From a virus: DNA of 23,745 nt. This document shows, piece after piece, positions 1 to 16,151 of the stretch. Positions within the stretch are counted from its first letter, which is position 1; each line of letters begins with the position of its first letter. Under the pieces are notes generated by a model. It was not told where the DNA came from. It ran no database searches and saw only the letters and a list, made by a program, of their open reading frames with translations. Where the stretch lies: positions 1 to 23,745 of the IMG/VR virus record IMGVR_UViG_3300032285_000100, one strand, 5' to 3'. Position numbers and translations under genes: made by a program.

Positions 1-3000
1 GGGCTGATGGCAAACTTAATGCGCTTGTCCAACTCATCAAAATATTGTTTGTGCAGTTGGTTGTCTTGGGAACCCTCGCCTTCGCCAGCGGCTTTGGCTT
101 CTGCAAACAACTTATCGCGTGCGGCAGTCAACTTGGCTGCGTATTTCATGTTTGACATCTGACGAGACATACTGAATGTCTTCTCGCGGAACGCACGGAT
201 TGAGTCCTTGCTGTAACCCAGCGTGCCTTTACGCTTCTGGAACGCCTGTGCAAAAGATGATTCAGGGAGTGTCTGCAAGAACAGGCGGAGCACTTGCTCA
301 CGTGCCTCAGTAAATTTCTCACGCGCCTCGGGAGTGAGGGAGCCACCATCAATGACTTGAAGCACGCTGTTCACGAAAGACGATGATGGCGTATTGCGGT
401 AGTTCATCTCTGACAGCTTGGCGAACTTCTGCACCTGTGTGGCACCGTTCTCTTTAAGCATGCTGATGAACCGCTCACGCTCACGTTCAGTCTCAAATGC
501 AGATACGTATGTGTCAGGTTTACCACCACGACCCGGGGCCGAGTAGGATACCCAGAAGTCACCATTACGTGTCAGTGGGAAATACGGTGTGATCTGTCCA
601 CGCTCGGCAAGTTTGGCGTAAATCTCCCGCTTGATCTTTTCAGATTCTTCCTTACCCATACCAGCGGCGTCGATACGTGCACCGATGGATTCCCGAATCT
701 CCTCGTACAGAGCTTGGTAGGTGTCGCGCATGCGGCGGTACAACTGACGACCTGCGGGGCCAATGGCCTCAAAGTCTTTCTGCATGGCATCCCATGCTTC
801 CAGCTTCTCTTTTTGGGTGAGCTTTTGGAGGCGCTCGGCATCTTTGTCACCCTTGGTGTCAGCCTTCTCATAGGTTTCACGTGGAACCGATGGGTCAACC
901 TCATCAATCGTACTTTTGTAGATTAGACTGTTGAACTTATCGAGTAACTTGCTGTGTTCTTTCGCCCACTTCTCAGCTTCAGCGACAACTGGCTCAATCT
1001 GTTGATTGCGGCGGTACTCATCACCACCCTTTTCTTCCACGAGGCGGTTGACCGTGGGTGCGGAGGGCAGGTAGGTCTTGGCAACGTCTACCAGTGCATG
1101 CAACGGGAGAGTGGACAGAACGATGTTCTTGATCGTACCCGTGGTTGTACCCTTCAAGAATCCATGCAACCTATCCGCACGCTCTTGCGTCATGCCGGGG
1201 AGTTTGGATACCGCATCAACGGCGCTGTTGAGCCAATCCGCTACAACCTCACTCTTGGGGTTGATCGTAGCGGCATAGAGGATGGGTGCATCACGCAGTT
1301 CAGGCGAAGGCGAGAGCATGGCCTCGATGACTTGATCAGCCTTATCCAAAGCTGTTTCGATGCGCTTGGGTTCAAGTCCGATGAGCTTGCGGAAAAAATT
1401 CTTTACCGAATTGGTAAAGCGTTGAAGCGCGGTGATCTTCTCACCCTTGGGGTTGATGGCGTTCAGCTTGGCACGGAACGACTCGTTTGACCATGCCTCG
1501 GCAGTGAACTCATCCAGCGACTCAGCGCCGTACGCAGTATCAAGCGAACCTTTGACATCATTGAACAACTCGCGCAGTTGTTTGGTCAGTGGGTGCGCAG
1601 GGTTGGCAAGTGTGTAGGCAGTGGCGGCATGCCCGACTTCGTGCAAGAGCACGTGCGTGTTCATACCTGTCTCGGGGTCAAGGAATATCGTGTCGGTCTT
1701 GGGGTCATACATACCCGGAACGCGCTGCCCGGCTTCGTTCGTAAGGTTCTCCTTGAGAACAACTTTTGGTGTGACACCCGCACGCACTAGGGCCGTCGCC
1801 AGCTTACCAATCGTGCCACCAAAATAATCAGCGGTCATTCGCAGTGCGCCTTGGATGTCACCCTTGGACAGCAAGTCAGCAATCGCTGGGTGCAGTGGCA
1901 TTGCCATCGAATCGGCTTCATCCAACTCCAGTGCGGCATCAGGGTTGGTATAAGTGCGGACGTATGCCTGTTCAGCGTTGTGCTTGGCAAGTTCTTTTTC
2001 AGAAGATGCAAATTGCTTCTGATACTCGGCAACCATCCTGTCGAGTGCCTTGATTGAGTCAGCATCCAAGTTTTCACGCACCCACTTTTCAGCAAGCTGG
2101 GCGGCTTTGAAATCCATGCCTTTGAAGAACTCAGCTTCAGCCGCCGATTCGCCCGGAGCGCGGCGATAACGTGGAGTCTTGTCCACGAGGTTGAACGCTA
2201 TGTTGCGCAGCGCGTCGATGGTGCGAGGTACCTTACCAAAATATGTTTTGGCGGCTTCAGCTTCCTTGGAAGGCTTGGCTTCTTTCTTGACCTTGCTGAC
2301 CTTGGCAGTGTCTGCCTCTTTCACATCAGTCTTGTCAGCGGCGTAGCCCACGTTGGCAACGCGCTTGAGTTCTTTGGCGGCAGTCTGCCCCGCCTTCTCC
2401 TCAACGGTCTTAGCTTCAGGCTCGGCTTTCTCCACAGGCTTCTCGGCCTTGGGAGCGGCTTCCTTCTTGGGTTCAGCCTTTGGCTCGGCCTTCTTCTCCA
2501 CAGTTTTTTCCACAGGCTTCTCAGCCTTGGCTTCAGGAGTAACTGCGGGTTTACCCTCGGGTTTGGCTTCTACTTTAGCTACGGGTTTACCCTCGGCTTT
2601 CTTACCTTCGGGTTTACCCTCAGTTATCAATTCGACAGGTGCAAACTTAGTAGTTTTCAGTGGAGTGGGTTTCTCGCTCTTTCGTACTCCAGTCTGTCCA
2701 GTACTGCTTGCAGGTACATCCACTCGCCCATCTCCAGATGGAGCAGTTCTTGCGGTGGTTTCAGTCTTTGCGGGTCGGCTAGAAACTGGAACGCCCTCTC
2801 CAGTAATGGTAGGGACAGGTTCGATAGATTTGAGTTGAGCACGTGGAGTCTCCTTTCCGGTGGCGGCGGCAGTCGCGCCACCCTTGGGGCCGAACATCTC
2901 GGACTGACCCATGAACAAGGGAGACTGCAATGCTTGTGCGACTTGGGCGCGAGATTCGGGAGGGACTGCCTCATTGGTCGAGTATGCAGTCAACTCACGT

Positions 3001-5201
3001 TGAACTTGAGCGCGTTGAGTCGGGTTAGATAAATCCTTTCCTACGAGGCGTTTGCGCAGCGGAGCGGAAGGCAACACACCAAAACCTGTCATCATCTCTT
3101 GCGTTACGACTTCTGGGGCCGGAGCTTGTCCAGCGGCCTCGGCTTTTGCCGCCTCTTGATTGGCACGCACCTTGTCACCGTAGCGAACACCCATACCGGG
3201 GAACGATTCTTGTACAGGTTCACGTACAACTGGCGCAGGGGCAGGTGCAGACTCAGGTGGCTCGGCAATTTGTAGCTGGCGCTGATTCTCAGCGGCAACA
3301 GTTTCAGCTTGTTTCTGCGCGGCGGCATCTTGCTCGGCCTGACGGAAGTCTTTATCGCGGCTGACAACTTCTTGCAAACGATCAGGCATCTGAGTGTTAA
3401 CAGGCTCCTCACGGAAGCCACGCCCCTCGGGTGCAGGTGCGGCAAACTGCAAGGCACCTTGGCGGGGATCGACTGATGCTTCGTTCTGCAACGACGCCAG
3501 ACTGTCGTCCTGCATCTCAGCACGAACTTGTTTGTATGCCTCAACTACGGCTTGTCTGGGGGCCATGCCCTTGTCAATCAACTCTTGGGTGACCTCGCTC
3601 ACGCGAATCGTCATCGGATCAGTTTCTTCGGGCGCGGCTTGGCGCTCGGGCATCATATCGCCGAGCAGGTCGGGCTGTTGGGACATGAACCCTTCTTCAG
3701 CGGCGGCGCGGCGGTCGGGGCGTTGCATACTTCCCATGCCGGGAAGTGACATCTGACGCTCGTCAATGGTAGGTGCTACATCTTCTTCAGGCGCGATCTT
3801 GGCCTTTGCCATCTTTACCGAGTCCATATCACCGGACTGGTTCAACATATCTGCTTCAGCGCGAGTCAGTTCTTCACCACGGTTGAGCTTGGTCTTGGCG
3901 GCATCGAGCGTTTCAGTGTATGAGGCACCCTTACCGTCAGGGGTATACCTAGCCACATCATCCATGCTGAACTTGGCTTTTGCCAGTTCATTGGGGAACA
4001 TATCTGCCTGTGGGCCACCAGCGCGGCGCTCGTAGGCGGGCCGATTAAAGTCAATGTCCGCAGGTAAATTTGTTTGTGCGGCGGTCTGCTCACCAGCAGC
4101 TTCGGCCCTACGGTCTGCTTCCTCACGTGATAACGCAGCGGTGCGGCGTCCTTCTACGATAGCGCCCGGGGCACCGAACGTACCGCCACCAATAGCACCC
4201 TTGATGGACGCGTTCAGAATACGGTCGATGTTCTCGGTGTCGAGGAGGCTACCCTTTGCGCCAGCAGTTTGCTCGGCAAGGATGCCCAGCACTTCTTGCA
4301 AGCCTTCAGTACCAGCTTCACCCAGCGTAGTTGTGCCAAGTGCCTTGGCGACTTCCAACTTAGCTGATCGGGGGACAATAGAGGAGCGGTTTAGGATTTC
4401 AGACGCCAGTCTATCTTTGGCGGCAGGACTTAATTGACTAAGAATTTTTGAGGGAAGATAGGTATCAAGCACACCTTGGGCGGCACCAAACGCCAGCGCG
4501 ATGCTAGGTTCTAATTTACCTGTCTTCTCATAAATACTCTCAAACGTGTCGGGTGCATTTAACCCAACAGAGGAACCATACATACCAGCCAGCGTACCGC
4601 GTTCGGCACCCTTGGCGGCGGCTTGTTCAGTAGCACGACCTGCAAGACGTGCAGCGTATGCGTCAGCGGCTTCACCAGTCAAACCACGTTTGGCGATTGT
4701 CTCTGCGGCTTTTGCTGCGGCAAGCTCTTCAACACCACGGGCGGCAACACGTTTACCAATAGATGCGCCAGCACCTGCACCCGTGAGCATGCCTAAGATG
4801 TCAGGGCCAAACTCACCGACTGTCTCAGCAAAAAAGCCGGGAACGTCACCCACACCGCGAACATCTTTGTAGGACTTGTACGCTGTGGGATTCTCCATCT
4901 CAGCTTGCTTTTTCTTCGCAGCCGCTTCAGCCAATTGTTCTTTGGCGTAATCATCAAACCCAAGCGCAGACCCCGCCAAGGCGGGGAGCGTGTCTGTAAT
5001 CGTACTACCCAACCCTGACGCAGCGCGTTTAAAGCCTCCTGCTACCAGCGAACCAAGACCCTGATCCCGATAGTCGGGAGTATAGGTACTGCGGGCTATT
5101 GCGGCGTTTGCAAGGGCGGCGGCGCGTTGCTTGATCTCGTCATCAGCCATCGTGTCGGGGAACGACACAGGCCCATAGTTGGGTATCTGTACGACTTTCA
5201 T
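1..5201 (-). CDS. Giant polyvalent-type phage protein with HEVGH zinc metallopeptidase domain (5' 1733 codons, C-terminus outside window)
   Basis: The frame is open from ATG at 5201 to the window edge; I checked every codon and found no stop, so at least 1733 residues are encoded. The start MKVVQIPNYG overlaps the previous stop by one base (TAATG). Seen: Ala/Gly-rich, partly hydrophobic N-terminus (about 30-260); a long low-complexity, probably disordered part (about 340-960) ending in a Lys/Pro/Glu-rich stretch (about 854-941); a metallopeptidase core with HVLLHEVGHA (HEVGH at 1187-1191) and a downstream DEFTAEAW (1230-1237) whose E1231 or E1235 may be the third zinc ligand; then a charged helical region containing PYFPLTRNGDFWV. 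Known: such giant proteins with zincin domains are called large polyvalent proteins and are thought to be packaged and injected with phage DNA. Inferred: processing of itself, virion or host proteins. The likely function beyond proteolysis is unknown. Confidence 0.85.
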   Translation of the reverse strand, partial: MKVVQIPNYGPVSFPDTMADDEIKQRAAALANAAIARSTYTPDYRDQGLGSLVAGGFKRAASGLGSTITDTLPALAGSALGFDDYAKEQLAEAAAKKKQAEMENPTAYKSYKDVRGVGDVPGFFAETVGEFGPDILGMLTGAGAGASIGKRVAARGVEELAAAKAAETIAKRGLTGEAADAYAARLAGRATEQAAAKGAERGTLAGMYGSSVGLNAPDTFESIYEKTGKLEPSIALAFGAAQGVLDTYLPSKILSQLSPAAKDRLASEILNRSSIVPRSAKLEVAKALGTTTLGEAGTEGLQEVLGILAEQTAGAKGSLLDTENIDRILNASIKGAIGGGTFGAPGAIVEGRRTAALSREEADRRAEAAGEQTAAQTNLPADIDFNRPAYERRAGGPQADMFPNELAKAKFSMDDVARYTPDGKGASYTETLDAAKTKLNRGEELTRAEADMLNQSGDMDSVKMAKAKIAPEEDVAPTIDERQMSLPGMGSMQRPDRRAAAEEGFMSQQPDLLGDMMPERQAAPEETDPMTIRVSEVTQELIDKGMAPRQAVVEAYKQVRAEMQDDSLASLQNEASVDPRQGALQFAAPAPEGRGFREEPVNTQMPDRLQEVVSRDKDFRQAEQDAAAQKQAETVAAENQRQLQIAEPPESAPAPAPVVREPVQESFPGMGVRYGDKVRANQEAAKAEAAGQAPAPEVVTQEMMTGFGVLPSAPLRKRLVGKDLSNPTQRAQVQRELTAYSTNEAVPPESRAQVAQALQSPLFMGQSEMFGPKGGATAAATGKETPRAQLKSIEPVPTITGEGVPVSSRPAKTETTARTAPSGDGRVDVPASSTGQTGVRKSEKPTPLKTTKFAPVELITEGKPEGKKAEGKPVAKVEAKPEGKPAVTPEAKAEKPVEKTVEKKAEPKAEPKKEAAPKAEKPVEKAEPEAKTVEEKAGQTAAKELKRVANVGYAADKTDVKEADTAKVSKVKKEAKPSKEAEAAKTYFGKVPRTIDALRNIAFNLVDKTPRYRRAPGESAAEAEFFKGMDFKAAQLAEKWVRENLDADSIKALDRMVAEYQKQFASSEKELAKHNAEQAYVRTYTNPDAALELDEADSMAMPLHPAIADLLSKGDIQGALRMTADYFGGTIGKLATALVRAGVTPKVVLKENLTNEAGQRVPGMYDPKTDTIFLDPETGMNTHVLLHEVGHAATAYTLANPAHPLTKQLRELFNDVKGSLDTAYGAESLDEFTAEAWSNESFRAKLNAINPKGEKITALQRFTNSVKNFFRKLIGLEPKRIETALDKADQVIEAMLSPSPELRDAPILYAATINPKSEVVADWLNSAVDAVSKLPGMTQERADRLHGFLKGTTTGTIKNIVLSTLPLHALVDVAKTYLPSAPTVNRLVEEKGGDEYRRNQQIEPVVAEAEKWAKEHSKLLDKFNSLIYKSTIDEVDPSVPRETYEKADTKGDKDAERLQKLTQKEKLEAWDAMQKDFEAIGPAGRQLYRRMRDTYQALYEEIRESIGARIDAAGMGKEESEKIKREIYAKLAERGQITPYFPLTRNGDFWVSYSAPGRGGKPDTYVSAFETERERERFISMLKENGATQVQKFAKLSEMNYRNTPSSSFVNSVLQVIDGGSLTPEAREKFTEAREQVLRLFLQTLPESSFAQAFQKRKGTLGYSKDSIRAFREKTFSMSRQMSNMKYAAKLTAARDKLFAEAKAAGEGEGSQDNQLHKQYFDELDKRIKFAIS
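2380..2640 (-). repeat. Lys/Pro/Glu/Ala low-complexity coding repeat in the giant protein
   Basis: This stretch encodes about 87 residues built almost only from K, P, E, A, V and T, with recurring units such as EGKP, KPVEK and AEPK. It separates the disordered N-terminal half of the giant protein from its metallopeptidase half and is most simply a flexible or extended charged linker. The repeats are imperfect at the DNA level. Confidence 0.8.
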
Positions 5202-7054
5202 TATTGTCCCAGTAAGTCAGAGGCAGCTTGATCATAAGACGTTGCGCCAGCCGAACTGCGAGTTCCCCCAATTAAATTCTCGGCGTAGCGTTGCTTGGCT
5301 CTGGAAATAATGCCTTGGAACTTGGGATCGTCAAGTTTGACCCGCCCGTTCTTCAAATCAAGCGCAAGCTGTGCCGCGCCGCCTGTGTAGGCTGCGCCCA
5401 CATACTTCTGAAACTCGGGTGAGCCGGGGTTGCTGAACGTCTCATTGACACGTTTTTCCACCGCTAACTTTTCGTTGATTGTCAGCGGCTTGGGTTGACT
5501 ACCCGCCATCAACTTCATCAGACCCATTTGGTTGCGCATCGAACCAAGTTCGGACTGCATACCTGCACGTTCCAGTGCCATCTGCAAGCCCATACCAGCG
5601 CGTTCGCGTTTACCCTCGGTATCAACAAGACCCTTCTGAGCACCCATCAATAGGCTGGAACGCTGAATCTCATACGTCTCGGCATCGCGTTTGTTCTTTT
5701 GATAGGAGTCAAAGTAGCGTTGTGATGCCTCACGGTCACCTTTCTCATCAGACATGCGAGACTTGATCAAGTCCATCTCTGCTTGGCGAGATGCTTTGTT
5801 AGCGGCAGACTCCAACTCACTGACCTTATCGTGGTAGTCTAGACCTTGTGTAGCACCCTCAAACAAACCTGTCATACCGGGTTTACGAGAAGCCAGCGCA
5901 GAAAGACCCCCACGGATTAAGGCGTCAGCATCTTTGTCGGCGTAGCGTGCTTTAGTGGCAGCACGTTCTTCGTCGATCATCTGTTGCATTTTGTCGTAGT
6001 ACGGCTTGGATGCGGCTTGATTCTGAGCAAACTGCTCACCGATGATGCGCTTGCGATCAGCCTCGGATACTTCAGGGTTTTCCCTATTACGAATACGCGC
6101 CATCTCATCTTGCACGAGCTTCTGATATGCAGTCTCCTGCTCCGTAGGCTTCATGTAACGGTCGATCATTCCTTGCATTTTGGACATATCGAAGCCGCCA
6201 CCGCCGCCACCCATCTGCTTGAGGATTGCGGCAATGTTGGCGTTACCACCGCCACCTTGGACAGTGAGGTCTTCGGGCCGAACAGGGCCAGCGGCGGGCG
6301 CAGGAGGTACGGCTTGCGCGGCGGCTTGCGCGGCGGCTTGCGCGGCGGCTTTGCGTTTCCATTCAGGGTCAGCGGGTTTATTGAGGAGGCGCTCCAGCAA
6401 GTTGCGACCGTCATCTTCACTTGCGGCGCTCATAATTTCAGAGCCGCCGCCACCCATCGGGTCACTCGACATGTCTACATCAACAGGTTGGTTCTTGTTG
6501 TCCTTGAACGCAACGATGCCACCACGCGCCATCAACAACGGCTGACCGCCACCGGACATATTGAATGGGGTAGGAGCTTGTTGTTGATCACGTTGGTCTT
6601 GCATGTCGCCGAGTGAGGCAATACCACCCGTAGCAAGTTTTTGAGGTTGCTGTTGAGTAGGTTGCATCGGTTGTGCAGGGGGCTGGGGAGCCTGTGCCAT
6701 CTGCTGTGGGGGAGCCGCTGGCGCACCTTGAGGCGCACCCTGTGGGGGTGGGGGAGGTGCAGACGATTGAAACTGTGCAGGGGCACCGGGCATCTGGGGC
6801 TGTTGCTGGGCTATGCCAGCCAAACCCATCGCAGCCTGAGCCACTATGGTGGGCATTTGCTGGGGGTTAGGTGCCATCTTTGCTACTTGCTCTTGTTGCA
6901 GTTGGGCACGGCGGCTTAATTCAAGACCCGCCAACATGTCCATCGGCATACCATCCACAGCTTGCTTGCCGGGGTTTTGCTTGTACTGCATCAATGCCTG
7001 AGTGGGCATCAGGCGCAAGTCTTTGCGCGTCTGTTCGAGTGATTGTCCAATCAT
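5201..7054 (-). CDS. Internal virion protein, 617 aa, Pro/Gln-rich N-terminus and helical C-terminus
   Basis: The N-terminus (1-60) contains GMPMDMLAGLELSRR, which I recognise as typical of a virion protein found in many uncultured aquatic phages. Residues 63-140 are Pro/Gln-rich and likely disordered. Two Gly-Gly-Ile motifs follow, ATGGIASLGDM (141-151) and ARGGIVAF (176-183), then a short AAQA repeat (about 236-248). The rest (about 290-617) is charged and mostly helical, with strong coiled-coil character around 330-480. It starts 3 bases after the 510-residue gene and its stop overlaps the start of the giant gene, so the three are probably translated together. Position after the nozzle and GNAT-like genes suggests an internal, ejected protein comparable in place to T7 gp14-gp16. 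No enzymatic motif is visible; the function is inferred from context. Confidence 0.75.
   Translation of the reverse strand: MIGQSLEQTRKDLRLMPTQALMQYKQNPGKQAVDGMPMDMLAGLELSRRAQLQQEQVAKMAPNPQQMPTIVAQAAMGLAGIAQQQPQMPGAPAQFQSSAPPPPPQGAPQGAPAAPPQQMAQAPQPPAQPMQPTQQQPQKLATGGIASLGDMQDQRDQQQAPTPFNMSGGGQPLLMARGGIVAFKDNKNQPVDVDMSSDPMGGGGSEIMSAASEDDGRNLLERLLNKPADPEWKRKAAAQAAAQAAAQAVPPAPAAGPVRPEDLTVQGGGGNANIAAILKQMGGGGGGFDMSKMQGMIDRYMKPTEQETAYQKLVQDEMARIRNRENPEVSEADRKRIIGEQFAQNQAASKPYYDKMQQMIDEERAATKARYADKDADALIRGGLSALASRKPGMTGLFEGATQGLDYHDKVSELESAANKASRQAEMDLIKSRMSDEKGDREASQRYFDSYQKNKRDAETYEIQRSSLLMGAQKGLVDTEGKRERAGMGLQMALERAGMQSELGSMRNQMGLMKLMAGSQPKPLTINEKLAVEKRVNETFSNPGSPEFQKYVGAAYTGGAAQLALDLKNGRVKLDDPKFQGIISRAKQRYAENLIGGTRSSAGATSYDQAASDLLGQ
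6311..6346 (-). repeat. Three perfect 12-bp tandem copies coding AAQA
   Basis: The plus-strand unit ggcttgcgcggc occurs three times in a row, followed by a partial copy. On the coding strand it gives Ala-Ala-Gln-Ala repeats in the 617-residue protein. The copies are identical at the DNA level, so this is a slippage-prone microsatellite whose copy number change stays in frame. Confidence 0.9.
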
Positions 7055-7057
7055 GTT

Positions 7058-8590
7058 TTACCCCGGTTTATTTCCGCCGTACAGTTTGCTGTAAATACCC
7101 GCCGCCGTTGCAGCACCACCCAAGATGTTGTTTGCGATGCTTGGGGCTTCAGTGTATTGGTTCTGAGTAGTCATTGGAAGACCTGTCAGCATATCCTTGA
7201 GATACTTCTGCTGTGTCTTGTCGTAGTCGCGCTGTTCCAAGAAGTCCTTATAGTCAGAAGTCAATTGCTCTTGGTCAATACCACGTTGAGTAGCACCCAT
7301 GTCAGCCATCGTCTTCAAACGGTTAAGGTTGAAGTTACCTTGGTTAATACCAATGTTACCCATGTTGGCGGCGGCAGAACCTGCCTCAGTCAAGTACTTC
7401 AGGCCCAGACCTGCACCAAACTGACGAGAATCTTCACCTGCCTTCAGACCTTCCAAACCATATTTGGCAGACAAGTCAGCGGATGTCAGGCCTTGCTTGG
7501 CACCGAACTGGCGAGACTCCTCACCCAGACGTGCGGCCTCCAAGCCGTACTTAGCGCGGAGTTCTGCATCTGAGAGTCCTTGCTTGGCAGCAAACTGCCG
7601 TGCTTGCTCACCCGAGTCGTATGCGGCTTGACCATACTTGGCTTGCAACTCAGCCTCGGTCAAACCTTGCTTGGCGGCAAACTGGCGGGACTCCTCACCC
7701 AAACGCTGTGCATCAAGGCCGTATTTGGCGGCAAGTTCTGACGAGGCCAAACCTTGCTTGGCACCAAACTGACGAGATTCCTCACCAGCCTTCTGAGCTT
7801 CCAAACCTAACTTGGCAGTGGACTCGGAACCAAGGCGATACTGCTCGGCTTCAGCCAGACGTTGTTTGAGCGCAGTGTCGTAGGCCGCTTGCGAACCCTT
7901 GGCTTGGATGTCACCAATTTGCTGGTTGACGTTGCGGATGTTTTCAGAGTTGTACAAGGCTTGGCGTCCACCACCAAAAGCACCTTGAAATTTCTTTGCG
8001 TCTTGCGCACGCTGGATGTCAGCTTGGCGACGAGCCTCACGTGCTTGAACGTCCACTACGTTTTGCAAGTAGGGGTTCATGTAGCTTTCAACGCTACCGG
8101 GTGCGCCAAGACCCGCAGATACAGTACCCGCATTAAACGTGCCACCTGTATAGGCTTGAGGTGCATTAAACCCTGACGAGAAGTTACCCGCTGTGTAATC
8201 TGTTACACCACCAAATTGATTGGTAGCTGCGGCAGGGGTATATGCCCCAACACCACCATACGTGTTGCCTTGTGTGGTTGGTGTGTACGCCGCAGGTGCG
8301 TTGAACTGATTACCAAACGTAGCCCCTGCATACGCAGGTTGCGTAGTTGCCTTGTTGTATACGCTTTGAAGATCGTTTGTAGCGTTGGTTACCGAGTCAG
8401 GTGTTGCTAAACCACTGATGCCTGTGAAAGCACTGTTCTGCAAGGTAGAAGTGTCTGCGACTTTCTGCCCACCATACCCTTGGTAGTTCTCCCCAGCGGT
8501 ATCCACCGCCGCACTGATTAGACCCCCTACGACTGGTGCTGCCCAGTCTGATACCGTCGATTCGACTGTTCCGGTTGCAATACCTGTCAT
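7058..8590 (-). CDS. Internal virion protein, 510 aa, with five 29-residue tandem repeats
   Basis: The start is set by a GGAG site five bases upstream (8599-8596). Residues 1-170 are low in charge and rich in Gly, Ala, Thr, Asn and Tyr, with several repeats of the type FNAPxAYT. Residues 170-255 contain YMNPYLQNVVD and a charged helical part. Residues 258-402 hold five 29-residue repeats with consensus AKYGLEAxxxGEESRQFAAK. The C-terminal part is helical and ends in a short Gly-rich tail. Proteins with this YMNPY segment and these repeats are common in uncultured aquatic phages, where they sit next to other internal virion proteins. It lies between the 1272- and 617-residue genes. Likely a component of the internal core or ejection apparatus; no catalytic motif is seen. 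Some relatives carry different repeat numbers, as far as I recall. Confidence 0.75.
   Translation of the reverse strand: MTGIATGTVESTVSDWAAPVVGGLISAAVDTAGENYQGYGGQKVADTSTLQNSAFTGISGLATPDSVTNATNDLQSVYNKATTQPAYAGATFGNQFNAPAAYTPTTQGNTYGGVGAYTPAAATNQFGGVTDYTAGNFSSGFNAPQAYTGGTFNAGTVSAGLGAPGSVESYMNPYLQNVVDVQAREARRQADIQRAQDAKKFQGAFGGGRQALYNSENIRNVNQQIGDIQAKGSQAAYDTALKQRLAEAEQYRLGSESTAKLGLEAQKAGEESRQFGAKQGLASSELAAKYGLDAQRLGEESRQFAAKQGLTEAELQAKYGQAAYDSGEQARQFAAKQGLSDAELRAKYGLEAARLGEESRQFGAKQGLTSADLSAKYGLEGLKAGEDSRQFGAGLGLKYLTEAGSAAANMGNIGINQGNFNLNRLKTMADMGATQRGIDQEQLTSDYKDFLEQRDYDKTQQKYLKDMLTGLPMTTQNQYTEAPSIANNILGGAATAAGIYSKLYGGNKPG
7385..7819 (-). repeat. Five tandem 87-bp (29-residue) coding repeats
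   Basis: The unit starts lie at residues 258, 287, 316, 345 and 374, exactly 29 residues apart. Conserved positions are A-K-Y-G-L near the start and ESRQF-x-AKQGL in the second half. The third unit is the most divergent (EQARQF instead of ESRQF) and the fifth loses the AKQGL part. DNA copies differ at many third codon positions, so the protein pattern is older than a recent duplication. Confidence 0.9.
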
Positions 8591-8599
8591 GATAGCTCC

Positions 8600-11500
8600 T
8601 TAACGGGGTAAGTACTTTTTAGGATTGATCTGCTTACCTTGGTCAGCAGTACCAGTACGTGCCTTGCGAACACGTTCCATCAAAGCGTACAGTTGTTTGG
8701 CACCCGCTTCAGAGTTGCCGTTACCGAGGTGCGAAACCACATCGGCGGGAATTACAAACTCGCCACCGCTTAACTTGGCAGGACGTTTGTTGTCAATGGT
8801 TGCATTGATCTTGTCTTCCATACCATCATGGGCAGACTTGAGGTAGCCGAGGCCACCATTGATCGAACCACCAGCGGCTTTCTTTTCAAAGTAGTTTACA
8901 GTGCCGTGGCCCCTTGTGCCTTGAGCGCCAGTCTGAACTCGCTGTCCGCCCGTACCTGCGGCGACTGAACGCAGACCCATAGGGGTGATACCTTTGGCAC
9001 CAGACGCTGCGCCGAGTGCCCCACCAGCAATTGCCGCAAGCGCCTTGGGGTTAGTCAACGCGGTAGTAAGGGCGTTTGCAAGTTTATCGGTAGTGCTGTT
9101 TGCACCCGTGGTCTTAGTTGTACCCGCAGGGGCAGAGCCGCCGGGAGTGTTACCTGTACCGCCAGTTGCTGCAACGTAGCCAGACTGCGCAGAGTTAAGC
9201 ATACCGTTTTTAATTAACGCATTAACCTGCTCTACGGTTAAGTAAGACGACTCACCTGTGGTGGGGTCAAGAACTGAGGCAGTACCATCATCATGGATAA
9301 ACACACGGTTGGTACCAACTGTCTGCCAACCGCTAGTAAAGCCATCGCCAGAAGCAGCGCCGTTGTTTTGAATGTTGTTCTTATCACGCTCGATCAAGTC
9401 TTCAACACCAGCATTGGCTGGTACGCCACCATTATTCTGGACGTTGTTACGATCACGATTGATCAGGTCTTCAACACTCATTTGATCAAGGGGTATTTCT
9501 CCATTATTCTGGACGTTTCCTTTATCGCGGTTAATCAGGTCTTCAATGCTGAAACCGCTGTTCGCCCCGTTGTTCTGCACGTTTTCCCGATCACGGTTAA
9601 TCAAGTCTTCAATACTCAATCCTTCGTAGTCATCCATGTTATCCCCCAAGTTAGTTTGTGTTGCGCGTGCAGGTTCATTACTGACTGGCAACGTGGTTTT
9701 ATCTGTGCGTAGCGGAGACAAGAACTGATCCAACTTGTCAGCATCCGCGCTAGTGCCTGTATCCCGAAGAATCTGATCAGTCGGGCGTGGCTCGGCATAC
9801 GTGTATGTATCGTTGCCTGTACCAAGACCTCGTGTGAGTCCAACATCTTCAGCCGCCTTTGCCTCTTTATTAGGCTCGTTAAAATACTTTGAGGCAAGCG
9901 TATCGGATGCGCCCAACTCATTTTCAGCGCCAGAATACAACCCACCTGTCTGTATACCCCCATGAATATCATCGGGTCTATCATCCAAAATGCTAGTACC
10001 AATTGTCTTGGTTGGGTCAGCATCTGTCAATGCGCTGTAAGTTGCGGTACCTTTTGTCGTAGCCTCAAGATCAGGTTTAGTCGTCTCAGTCAGGTTTCTG
10101 TCAGTCAACGAGGCAATTCCAGTGTCATCGGCAGTACCCGACGTGCCACCCTGTTGACTCGTTATAAGGCTACGCAGTCCAATATCACCCACATTTTCAG
10201 AGTCCGACATGATGTTGGATGGCTGGTAGGAGGCAGTCTGTACTCCTTGATCCTTGCCATAGTTCAGCAATTCGGACACCCCCGAGGTATCTACGGGTGC
10301 GTTGGCAACACCCAGATCAGCCGCCATCAGGTCATTCGGTGCAGTAGAAAGCTGAGTGCCCTCCAATTGAGGGAGATCAGTCGTGGCAATCGTAGGGTTG
10401 GTGACGGGGCTGGTTTGAGCATCCGTGATGTCCGAAGTAGTGTCTGCAATGCTTGCAGTATCGACACCTAAGTCAGCCGGAGTTGGTGGGCCAACCATAT
10501 CAACATTGGGGTCAAACGCAAACGGGTCAGTGGCGGCAACTTGGTTAGTAGGTATCGCGGCGGTTTGCCCCAAAGTGTCAAACCCAAACTGATCAGCCGT
10601 TTGCTCGTTTGTAGCAACTTGTTGATCGGCAGTTTCTTGGGTCAAATCATTGGCATCAGCTTGCTGTTTGAGCGCAGTAGCCTGACCACTGTTTTGTGCA
10701 AATTGAGTTGGGGTAATGTCAGAACCTTCTACCCCAACAACCCCAGAGGTACTCTTAAATTGATTCCAAGAATCTGCTTCAGGGCGGGTTTCGCCCAGTG
10801 CGGTCTGTGCTTCGGTGCGGTCGGCGTAATTGTCAAACCCAAGGTTTTGAGAGAACTGATCTTGAATACGCCCTTTAACAACATCCTCGGCTACGTTCTG
10901 ATAGTTAGCGGGGATACTGGATACATCAACGGGTACTGCTGGCATAAACGCCAACAAGTCTTCCGAAGTAGGATCAGGGATTGGGGCATCAGTGCCGTAA
11001 ATGTCAGCGTATGTCTGCTTGTACAAGTCAGTGGCTTCTTGCACCGTAGTAGCACGTGCGTCAGCAAATGCTTGTAATGCAGCCAGCGTTTCTTTCTCAT
11101 CCTTGACACCGAGGAACTGCTTGGCGAGTTCAGGATCGTCTGGATCAAAACGGTAGCCCTCTTTGAGGGCGGCGGCTTGCGCCTCCTCTAAGTCAGTTGT
11201 CTTGAGGTCAATGTAATCTTTGGCGGCAGTAGCTACGTCACCTGTTTTGACAAGTGCATCAAGCTGTGTCTGATCAAGGGGGATGCCGAGGGCTTGCTCA
11301 ACGCTGGTTTTGGCGGCTACGGTGTCGTTAAACACTTTGGCAACTTGCTGTGCGTTAGCTTCTTCTTGCTTTTGGAAGTCTGCAATCGAAGTATCCAGCG
11401 TTGCTTTTTGCGCAAGCAATGTCTTCTCAAGTGTGGGAAGCTGAGTTTTTAACCCATCTAACTCAGTAGATAGGGTAGCTAGTTTTGTTTCAGCGGTAGC

Positions 11501-12418
11501 ACGTGCATCTTCATAACCGGGAATTGCATCGTTAACAAGGTTAGCGTATTTGTTGACTTCCTCTACCGCAACTTCCCCTCTGTCATACCCCGCTTTTAAT
11601 TCGTTGTATTTGTCAAGGTTGGCTTGAATTACTTCACGCTTTTTATTGATGTCATCCGCAGTTGTCGTGTACTCTTGGACAATTTCATTTTGCCGTCTGC
11701 CGTTATCGTCCAACGCCTTACCTGTTTGGGTAGCGTTGTTGTAAGCCGTTTGCAATGTCGAGCTAACGTCTTTAAGTCCATCTTTTAGGTAATCTTTACC
11801 CGCGCCCAGCATGCTGCTCAGTACAGAATTAACGACCGCCTTGTCGGTGTCTTTGCCTAAAACACCAGCGGCTAAACCTGCGTTTACAGCACGCTGCGTA
11901 GCGGCACCCGCCGCGCCATAGTCTTTTGCAAGGTCATTGAAGCCGGGGATTCTTGAGGTAACCTCATTAACTCCTGCCATCGCGCCAGCAGTCAAACCTG
12001 CGGTCAAACCACCAGTAATCAATGCTTTGATTGGATCGCCTTTACCAGTAAGTGCTGACCCAAGTGCGGCTTGAGTACCACCACCAGCCATAGCGCCAGC
12101 AACTTTACCAATAGACCCCGCAATTGAGGAGTACCCAGCATCGGTTGCGGCGCTTGCAATTGATGAAGAAACAGAGGACGCAACAGAAGCACCTACAAAA
12201 GAAGTAACACCCCCAATTACCGCCCCTTTAAGTGCATCTGATACTGATGCGCCTTGTGCAAGTGATAGCCCTGCGGAAACAACTCCTGAACCAATTGCGG
12301 TAGCAACGGCAGTTGAAACAGTGGCGGTTGTAAGCGCCCCAACAACGGCAGTACCGATGGCGGCGGCAACTCCCGTTTCAACTATTATGGCCCCAATAAA
12401 TACGGCTGCTGCTGGCAT
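8600..12418 (-). CDS. Large internal virion / ejection protein, 1272 aa, glycine-zipper N-terminus
   Basis: Residues 1-155 are an almost charge-free Ala/Gly/Val/Ser region with repeated small-xxx-small spacing (for example GAVIGGVTSFVGASVASS), able to form packed membrane helices. Residues about 240-365 are a coiled coil. Residues about 480-930 are rich in Thr, Asp, Gln and Pro and probably disordered. Four copies of a 17-residue motif follow at 935-1020. The C-terminus has a conserved block, GGEFVIPADVVSHLGNG (1218-1234) and ALMERVRKARTG, which I recognise from the ends of many aquatic phage virion proteins. It starts just after the GNAT-like gene (TAATATG) with GGAG upstream. Inferred: a protein stored in the capsid that inserts into the host envelope during DNA delivery. 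Tape measure is an alternative, but no other long-tail genes are present. Confidence 0.75.
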   Translation of the reverse strand: MPAAAVFIGAIIVETGVAAAIGTAVVGALTTATVSTAVATAIGSGVVSAGLSLAQGASVSDALKGAVIGGVTSFVGASVASSVSSSIASAATDAGYSSIAGSIGKVAGAMAGGGTQAALGSALTGKGDPIKALITGGLTAGLTAGAMAGVNEVTSRIPGFNDLAKDYGAAGAATQRAVNAGLAAGVLGKDTDKAVVNSVLSSMLGAGKDYLKDGLKDVSSTLQTAYNNATQTGKALDDNGRRQNEIVQEYTTTADDINKKREVIQANLDKYNELKAGYDRGEVAVEEVNKYANLVNDAIPGYEDARATAETKLATLSTELDGLKTQLPTLEKTLLAQKATLDTSIADFQKQEEANAQQVAKVFNDTVAAKTSVEQALGIPLDQTQLDALVKTGDVATAAKDYIDLKTTDLEEAQAAALKEGYRFDPDDPELAKQFLGVKDEKETLAALQAFADARATTVQEATDLYKQTYADIYGTDAPIPDPTSEDLLAFMPAVPVDVSSIPANYQNVAEDVVKGRIQDQFSQNLGFDNYADRTEAQTALGETRPEADSWNQFKSTSGVVGVEGSDITPTQFAQNSGQATALKQQADANDLTQETADQQVATNEQTADQFGFDTLGQTAAIPTNQVAATDPFAFDPNVDMVGPPTPADLGVDTASIADTTSDITDAQTSPVTNPTIATTDLPQLEGTQLSTAPNDLMAADLGVANAPVDTSGVSELLNYGKDQGVQTASYQPSNIMSDSENVGDIGLRSLITSQQGGTSGTADDTGIASLTDRNLTETTKPDLEATTKGTATYSALTDADPTKTIGTSILDDRPDDIHGGIQTGGLYSGAENELGASDTLASKYFNEPNKEAKAAEDVGLTRGLGTGNDTYTYAEPRPTDQILRDTGTSADADKLDQFLSPLRTDKTTLPVSNEPARATQTNLGDNMDDYEGLSIEDLINRDRENVQNNGANSGFSIEDLINRDKGNVQNNGEIPLDQMSVEDLINRDRNNVQNNGGVPANAGVEDLIERDKNNIQNNGAASGDGFTSGWQTVGTNRVFIHDDGTASVLDPTTGESSYLTVEQVNALIKNGMLNSAQSGYVAATGGTGNTPGGSAPAGTTKTTGANSTTDKLANALTTALTNPKALAAIAGGALGAASGAKGITPMGLRSVAAGTGGQRVQTGAQGTRGHGTVNYFEKKAAGGSINGGLGYLKSAHDGMEDKINATIDNKRPAKLSGGEFVIPADVVSHLGNGNSEAGAKQLYALMERVRKARTGTADQGKQINPKKYLPR
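9359..9616 (-). repeat. Four copies of a 17-residue motif (SIEDLINRDRxNVQNNG)
   Basis: Copies occupy residues 935-951, 957-973, 981-997 and 1004-1020 of the 1272-residue protein, with spacers of five to seven residues. The core EDLI-x-RD-[RK]-x-N-[VI]-QNNG is kept in every copy, while codons differ at many third positions. The array sits just before the Gly/Thr-rich C-terminal part. Confidence 0.92.
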
Positions 12419-15282: not shown

Positions 15283-15648
15283 TCAGGTCACCCTTACCCA
15301 CTCCGGTTTGCCTTGGCCTCGGCTGAAGTGTGGACAGTCCACGAGCTTCTTGCCGTTCCCGCCCCACGAGTTCAGGGGGTTGAGCGTTTCCCAATAGGCA
15401 CCCAGAGGGGCAAGCGTGGCCTTGTCGCCAACGAGTTTGCCGTTCTTGAAGATGTTGAAGTCCACCGCCAAGCGTACCAAGTGCAACGAGTTCATCGTCT
15501 GGCTACGCCCAGTCTTCATGTAGATTTCTTGCTGTTCGGGAGTACGGTACAACTCTCCTGCGGTGAGGGTAAAGCCTTGCTCGGTTGCAAACTGAATCAG
15601 CCTGCACATATCAAGGAGGAAAGCAGCTTGTTCGGTAACAAGGCTCAT
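15283..15648 (-). CDS. Endolysin, M15-family L-Ala-D-Glu (VanY-like) peptidase, 121 aa
   Basis: The zinc-binding motif is SLHLVRLAVDFNIF, with H56 and D63 as ligands, and DCPHF gives D104 as likely catalytic acid/base and H107 as third ligand. YRTPEQQ (34-40) is a further family hallmark. The size suits a single catalytic domain without a cell-wall binding domain, as usual for phages of Gram-negative hosts. It would cut the peptide stem of peptidoglycan at lysis. No signal peptide is visible, so export needs the holin encoded just upstream, whose stop it overlaps by four bases (ATGA). A GGGGG site precedes the start. Confidence 0.9.
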   Translation of the reverse strand: MSLVTEQAAFLLDMCRLIQFATEQGFTLTAGELYRTPEQQEIYMKTGRSQTMNSLHLVRLAVDFNIFKNGKLVGDKATLAPLGAYWETLNPLNSWGGNGKKLVDCPHFSRGQGKPEWVRVT

Positions 15649-16151
15649 TTGTTCCCCCTTTTCATTTCAGCGAGTTTCTCAATGGTGCGACCACCAAAGT
15701 ATGCGCCCATGATCAGCATGCCCCACTGACCCAGCAACGATACGTAAGACTCGTTGGCGTTGTAGCCAAAGGCTGACATCATGGAGAACAAGAAGTACCC
15801 CACAAAGATGGCAATCAGGCTCATGGGGCGAATGTTTTTAGATAGCCAAGAATCAGACGACATGTCTGATTTCCAGCGATCTGAGACGTTGTTGTCTTCA
15901 TTCTGCGCGGCAGCAGCAAAGGCTTGAAGTTCGTCGATACCTAGCTTCTTTTCCTCGATGCGCAAGCGCAAGAGTTCTTCTTCGTGATCTAACTCGTACT
16001 GTTTGAGTTTTACGGTGTCTTCAGCCGACAGCGGCTGGTCGATCTTGATGCCTGTCTTTTCCTCAACCCAATCTTTGCCTTTTGCCAAGACAGCATTTGA
16101 GATGAGGGAAAGACCCTGCGAAAGTAGTGGTGCAAGAAGTGCGGGAATCAT
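15645..16151 (-). CDS. Holin, 3TM gene-transfer-agent type, 168 aa
   Basis: An N-terminal hydrophobic segment (IPALLAPLLSQGLSLISNAV) is followed by a charged coiled part (about 40-85), the signature RWKSDMSSDSWLSKNIRP (92-109), and two membrane helices (IRPMSLIAIFVGYFLFSMMS and LLGQWGMLIMGAYFGGRTIE). This arrangement matches the holin family described as 3TM holins for gene transfer agent release. It would form the inner-membrane lesion that lets the endolysin reach the wall. It overlaps the 104-residue gene upstream and the endolysin downstream by four bases each, so stoichiometry is probably set by translational coupling. Confidence 0.85.
   Translation of the reverse strand: MIPALLAPLLSQGLSLISNAVLAKGKDWVEEKTGIKIDQPLSAEDTVKLKQYELDHEEELLRLRIEEKKLGIDELQAFAAAAQNEDNNVSDRWKSDMSSDSWLSKNIRPMSLIAIFVGYFLFSMMSAFGYNANESYVSLLGQWGMLIMGAYFGGRTIEKLAEMKRGNK

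Follow-up and report, generated by a model that had tools for sequence, protein, structure and literature searches.

Zincin peptidases are the commonest domain of the phage 'polyvalent' proteins, and either autoprocessing or host targets have been proposed for them (Iyer et al. 2017, PMC5512222). In the same work the polyvalent MPTases were sorted into 12 clades and unified with the zincin of lethal factor, and several modes of action were considered: the protein may process itself ahead of packaging (P1 DdrB), processing may occur inside the head or once the cell is entered, or host proteins may be attacked. In the N4-like virion RNA polymerases (Schitoviridae), a zincin precedes a large helical C-terminal half; according to the N4 structure paper, HExxH lies in subdomain C1, and the C2 half is mostly helical, with a fold that has no known relatives. 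The PLxRFG/tail-700 giants of temperate podophages (Lastavirus, Parlo, PEp14, POI1126 and Skulduggery), with genes of about 9-15 kb, have an LPD39-like region and a whole C-terminal PLxRFG domain, and mostly an HExxH domain just upstream of the LPD39-like region.

Here we analyse a giant protein encoded at one end of an IMG/VR fragment of 23,745 bases (the window). Judged from sequence and structural modelling, its membership in this already described class, with a conserved zinc-peptidase domain, is well supported. With the zincin proteins of Iyer et al. 2017 (PMC5512222) it shares HExxH and a second-helix Glu, LPD39, the large multidomain form and the virion gene context, and its combination of zincin, LPD39 and PLxRFG in one chain is the kind of multidomain make-up that marks polyvalent proteins; unlike them, it has no other recognised effector enzyme. 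The features listed above for the temperate-podophage giants are also shared, but the present gene is only 6.8 kb, the identity is 23-28%, the zincin belongs to a different clade, there is no methylase/helicase part, and the literal string PLxRFG is absent. When compared to the N4-like virion RNA polymerases, the zincin in front of the C-terminal half and the position as the last gene, before a convergent replication module, are common to both, whereas profile comparison detected no relation between the C-terminal halves, and Pfam and PHROGs scans found no T7-like RNA polymerase domain in the full protein. The 2,307-aa protein of Rhizobium phage RHph_TM27A has a zincin found by the same profile and then a PLxRFG C-terminus, in the same order, but the identity is about 24-25% and the N-terminus differs.

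The gene and its operon

The giant-protein gene and the three large genes upstream of it are as follows.

3..5201, minus strand: polyvalent-type giant protein, residues 1-1733 of about 2,271; open frame, full length in two relatives
5201..7054, minus strand: 617-aa protein, immediately upstream in the operon, without a family match of weight
7058..8590, minus strand: 510-aa protein (P0003) with a weak DNA-ejection protein match (phrog_4287, E 0.009) and 29-aa repeats
8600..12418, minus strand: 1272-aa protein (P0004) with an N-terminal series of hydrophobic Ala/Gly segments

The frame of 1,733 codons starts with ATG, runs on the minus strand from 5201 to 3 and is stop-free to the window end. 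The initial annotation had supposed that it continues outside the window and had advised a downstream extension; the frame itself and the full-length copies in two IMG/VR relatives agree with this. The full-length protein was taken from these relatives, which came from the viral contig scan: L002 (contig of 60,852 bases, 99% identity over the best segment), where it has 2,271 aa, 538 of them beyond the window, and L003 (44,427 bases, 93% identity), where it has 2,266 aa. The window and L002 differ by 99 synonymous and 22 non-synonymous codon changes, and the resulting dN/dS of about 0.07 indicates a real gene under purifying selection.

The gene order in the two relatives also bears out the earlier placement of the gene as the last of the virion/ejection operon. 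In L002 the downstream genes point the opposite way, and those facing the giant-protein gene encode a DUF927 primase/helicase, an SNF2 helicase and a PD-(D/E)XK nuclease. The minus-strand run that ends in the giant gene includes a tail-fibre-like protein, a holin and a 'stabilization' protein (phrog_3287), which we take to be P22 gp10-like. The three large upstream proteins (617, 510 and 1272 aa) are likely of the ejection type. The C-terminal part of P0004 resembles a tape-measure-like protein of phage DSL-LC04. The last gene at the syntenic place of that phage encodes a different protein, without HExxH and without similarity to the present giant. The L002 contig additionally encodes a portal protein, a large terminase, a major-head-protein match and a DNA polymerase, and this gene content makes a short-tailed phage of some 60 kb the probable source. 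No prophage relatives were found in scans of genome contigs, and therefore no host is suggested.

Some smaller features of the window were also recorded. The 29-residue repeats of P0003, KQGL..AEL.AKYG....GEESRQFGA, correspond to a 174-base tandem repeat at 7413-7818. P0004 has four spaced repeats xEDLINRDxxNVQNNG at residues about 936-1012 (9383-9613). A small lysis pair occupies 15283-16151, where an M15-like peptidase frame (15283-15648, by inspection) adjoins a holin (15645-16151, phrog_3427).

Domain layout and the predicted zinc peptidase

Within the window, the giant protein is divided as follows.

5100..5201, minus strand: N-terminal motif, residues 1-34, VxIPNxGxVxFPDxM / VxIPGxGxVxFPDxM, from compared start regions of relatives
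4737..5099, minus strand: residues 35-155, phrog_6958 'virion structural protein' (E 1.8e-10 with the window protein, 2.8e-9 with the full protein)
2082..4121, minus strand: low-complexity stretch by composition, residues 361-1040, rich in P/E/K/Q/A
1182..1934, minus strand: zincin-like metallopeptidase domain, residues 1090-1340, from AlphaFold2, Foldseek and profile matches
1629..1643, minus strand: HEVGH, residues 1187-1191, two predicted zinc ligands and general base, from conservation
1509..1511, minus strand: Glu1231 of DEFTAEA, predicted third zinc ligand, from conservation
609..1136, minus strand: LPD39 (PF18858), residues 1356-1531 (E 1.1e-17, 64.8 bits against a cut-off of 27)
3..587, minus strand: first quarter of the PLxRFG/tail-700 domain (NF032893), partial (E 3.2e-26, 92 bits)

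The N-terminal motif is common to part of the family, while other members have YxIxAPDGxxYxIeGP (starts of L016-L094); thus two alternative motifs occur on otherwise homologous giants, as if they were an exchangeable N-terminal tag. In the low-complexity stretch the K/E content peaks at about 800-1000, and the Pfam scan recognised no domain there. In L002 the whole PLxRFG domain is present at 1539-2259 (E 6.1e-118, positions 2-680 of 681), and its 395 bits exceed the curated NF032893 cut-off of 100 bits. The profile HMM search proposed in the initial annotation returned a polyvalent-protein domain, LPD39, above its curated cut-off. Of the further enzymatic domains thought possible in the C-terminal part, none was recognised; LPD39 and PLxRFG, which have no known activity, were found there. 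A structure search with residues 1340-2271 (model pLDDT 74) gave no PDB fold match.

With the composition of this protein, chance alone would give about 0.005 HExxH motifs. For the conservation analysis, an IMG/VR search with the PLxRFG alignment gave 80 further loci. Among 32 non-redundant zincin domains, H1187, E1188, H1191, E1231, N1239, F1242 and R1271 are invariant; HExxH is kept in 49/49 family sequences that cover it, and the third-ligand Glu in 50/50. HEVGH at 1187-1191 had been pointed out for the metallopeptidase, and a possible third ligand had been placed in DEFTAEAW. Both assignments are right, since the former is invariant in the relatives and the latter corresponds to the Glu of 'DEF' (DEFTAEA being residues 1230-1236), invariant in all 32. 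E1231 is also kept in the alignment with virion RNA polymerases and other phage giants. When residues 1041-1345 were searched with tblastn, weak matches were obtained to N4-like virion RNA polymerases, to crAss-like giants, to internal virion proteins of Autographiviridae and to one Rhizobium phage protein with a PLxRFG C-terminus; the alignment of these matches retains HExxH and the Glu of xEF, and the family zincin profile finds the first three groups as well. No Pfam or NCBIfam model recognises the present zincin and its region has no PDB sequence match, and so the assignment rests on alignment and fold.

The AlphaFold2 model of residues 1090-1340, built on the alignment of the relatives (pLDDT 85, pTM 0.77), has a minimal zincin fold, in which a helix (H40-51), three strands (E57-60, E74-77, E82-85) and the HEVGH-bearing helix (H93-109) follow each other, in agreement with the core reported for polyvalent MPTases by Iyer et al. 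2017. The third-ligand Glu lies in model helix 140-149, which starts at the DEF motif. The leading PDB matches by Foldseek are gluzincin peptidases. Catalytic domains of anthrax lethal factor rank first (probability up to 0.99, E-values of 0.014 and higher), and the small archaeal gluzincins jannalysin and selecase come after them with lower significance; no PDB E-value is below 0.014. The BFVD matches include Bordetella phage BB8 internal protein D, the PAO1_Ab05 internal core protein, a structural protein from Cellulophaga phage phi14:2 and the SBP1 virion RNA polymerase. Taken together, LPD39, the invariant ligands and the confident fold with its zincin core around HEVGH support the original identification of a large polyvalent-type protein with a zincin metallopeptidase; neither of the contrary outcomes looked for, a fold lacking the zincin core or an HExxH that varies among homologues, was obtained.

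The position beside LPD39-PLxRFG

The position just upstream of the LPD39-PLxRFG half nearly always holds a metallopeptidase-like domain, and these domains come from several zincin clades. The present zincin was found in 46 of the 54 sufficiently long IMG/VR family proteins, mostly about 1,040-1,160 residues from the C-terminus. Among the other eight, HEIAHHDE occurs in five and an HExxxH motif, located further upstream, in two (L042 and L062); the last (L041) is cut at its 5' end near this position. The five (L025, L027, L029, L030 and L072) form a subclade in which HEIAHHDE replaces the usual zincin; in L025 (L025:1116-8564), the sole member scanned, a GHKL/HATPase match (PF13589, residues 831-929) is followed by HEIAHHDE.

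In the cultivated PLxRFG phages, HExxH or HExxxH occupies the same position in 8 of the 9 examined, and in ZX1 and TM27A in addition. Five of these domains constitute a group with conserved HExxH and EE, for which a single hhalign comparison with the present zincin gave E 9e-6 and a probability of 83%; the alignment with the HExxxH group is less complete (E 1.3e-5, 81%, 55 columns). At least three sequence classes of zincin occur at this position: HExxHAAT...E, HExxHSGA...EE and HExxxH. None of the domains from the cultivated phages is recognised as a peptidase by Pfam. In Agrobacterium phage Atu_ph08 (L135:2705-3907) HExxH is missing from the position, and a JAMM-like stretch, FHNHPSNTHLSVAD, is present there, which we regard as a lead only; Pfam did not confirm it, and its spacing is presumably one short of the RadC form. 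Such repeated filling by different zincins was not found stated in the sources consulted, among them the article text of Iyer et al. 2017.

Proposed role and alternatives

We think it reasonably probable that the protein is packaged with the internal and ejection proteins and delivered at infection, and that the predicted zinc peptidase acts after delivery on a host protein or on its own chain, which follows the general model of Iyer et al. 2017 (PMC5512222). The operon position and the virion homologues suggest that the giant would enter the cell with the other packaged proteins, and the LPD39-PLxRFG half may be the chassis for virion association or ejection. For the PLxRFG half, packaging is a role that we infer from position, because no N4 C-terminal relation and no PDB match were obtained. 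Against the preferred reading also stand the PDB E-values of the zincin model, none below 0.014, and the different, HExxH-less protein encoded last at the syntenic place in phage DSL-LC04. In the active site, H1187, H1191 and E1231 are predicted to bind Zn and E1188 to activate water. Between the two kinds of target we lean slightly towards the host side, because no further effector that could be released is recognisable in the chain and because the zincin clades swap while the chassis stays. With no other effector recognisable upstream, a peptidase that serves to set further effectors free is also less plausible. We found nothing specific in the literature on virion proteomics of such proteins.

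Autoprocessing during assembly would give the domain an earlier role: the zincin would trim the giant before or inside the capsid, similar to P1 DdrB, and only a fragment would be delivered. The same was argued for DdrB itself, of which a 76-kDa cleaved form is packaged (Iyer et al. 2017, PMC5512222), and both the metallopeptidase-like domain that nearly always adjoins the LPD39-PLxRFG half and the long low-complexity stretch upstream of the zincin would suit such a scheme. Nevertheless, we consider it unlikely, as the N4 virion RNA polymerase has a related domain and yet enters the particle without processing (Iyer et al. 2017, PMC5512222) and no candidate cleavage site was identified in the present protein. 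A structural or regulatory domain, which binds metal and serves packing or folding without proteolysis, is harder still to accept. The N4 region with the zincin domain is required for encapsidation (Iyer et al. 2017, PMC5512222), and the accessible part of the N4 structure paper reports no protease activity, but the catalytic Glu1188 varies no more than the ligands do (49/49), and a purely structural site would not need it. The DarB-like antirestriction label that relatives carry in PHROG and RefSeq is very improbable as an identity, and we rejected it, because the phrog_10089 match (1518-2264, E 1.7e-68) is limited to the last 700 of 4,647 profile positions, which are the PLxRFG domain, and Pfam finds neither a methylase nor an SNF2 helicase domain in the full protein.

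The zincin belongs to the commonest domain type of polyvalent proteins, for which no established substrate was found in the sources consulted. The repeated filling of the position beside LPD39-PLxRFG leads to a specific testable hypothesis, which we put forward tentatively and with more doubt than conviction: that the LPD39-PLxRFG half cannot function unless a metallopeptidase is present in cis, be it a zincin, HEIAHHDE or possibly a JAMM-like domain, and that ejection or activation generally involves adjacent proteolysis. This compact family, in which a zincin, an LPD and a PLxRFG domain occur once each and no other effectors are recognised, is a simpler test object than the giants of 4,000-5,000 residues.
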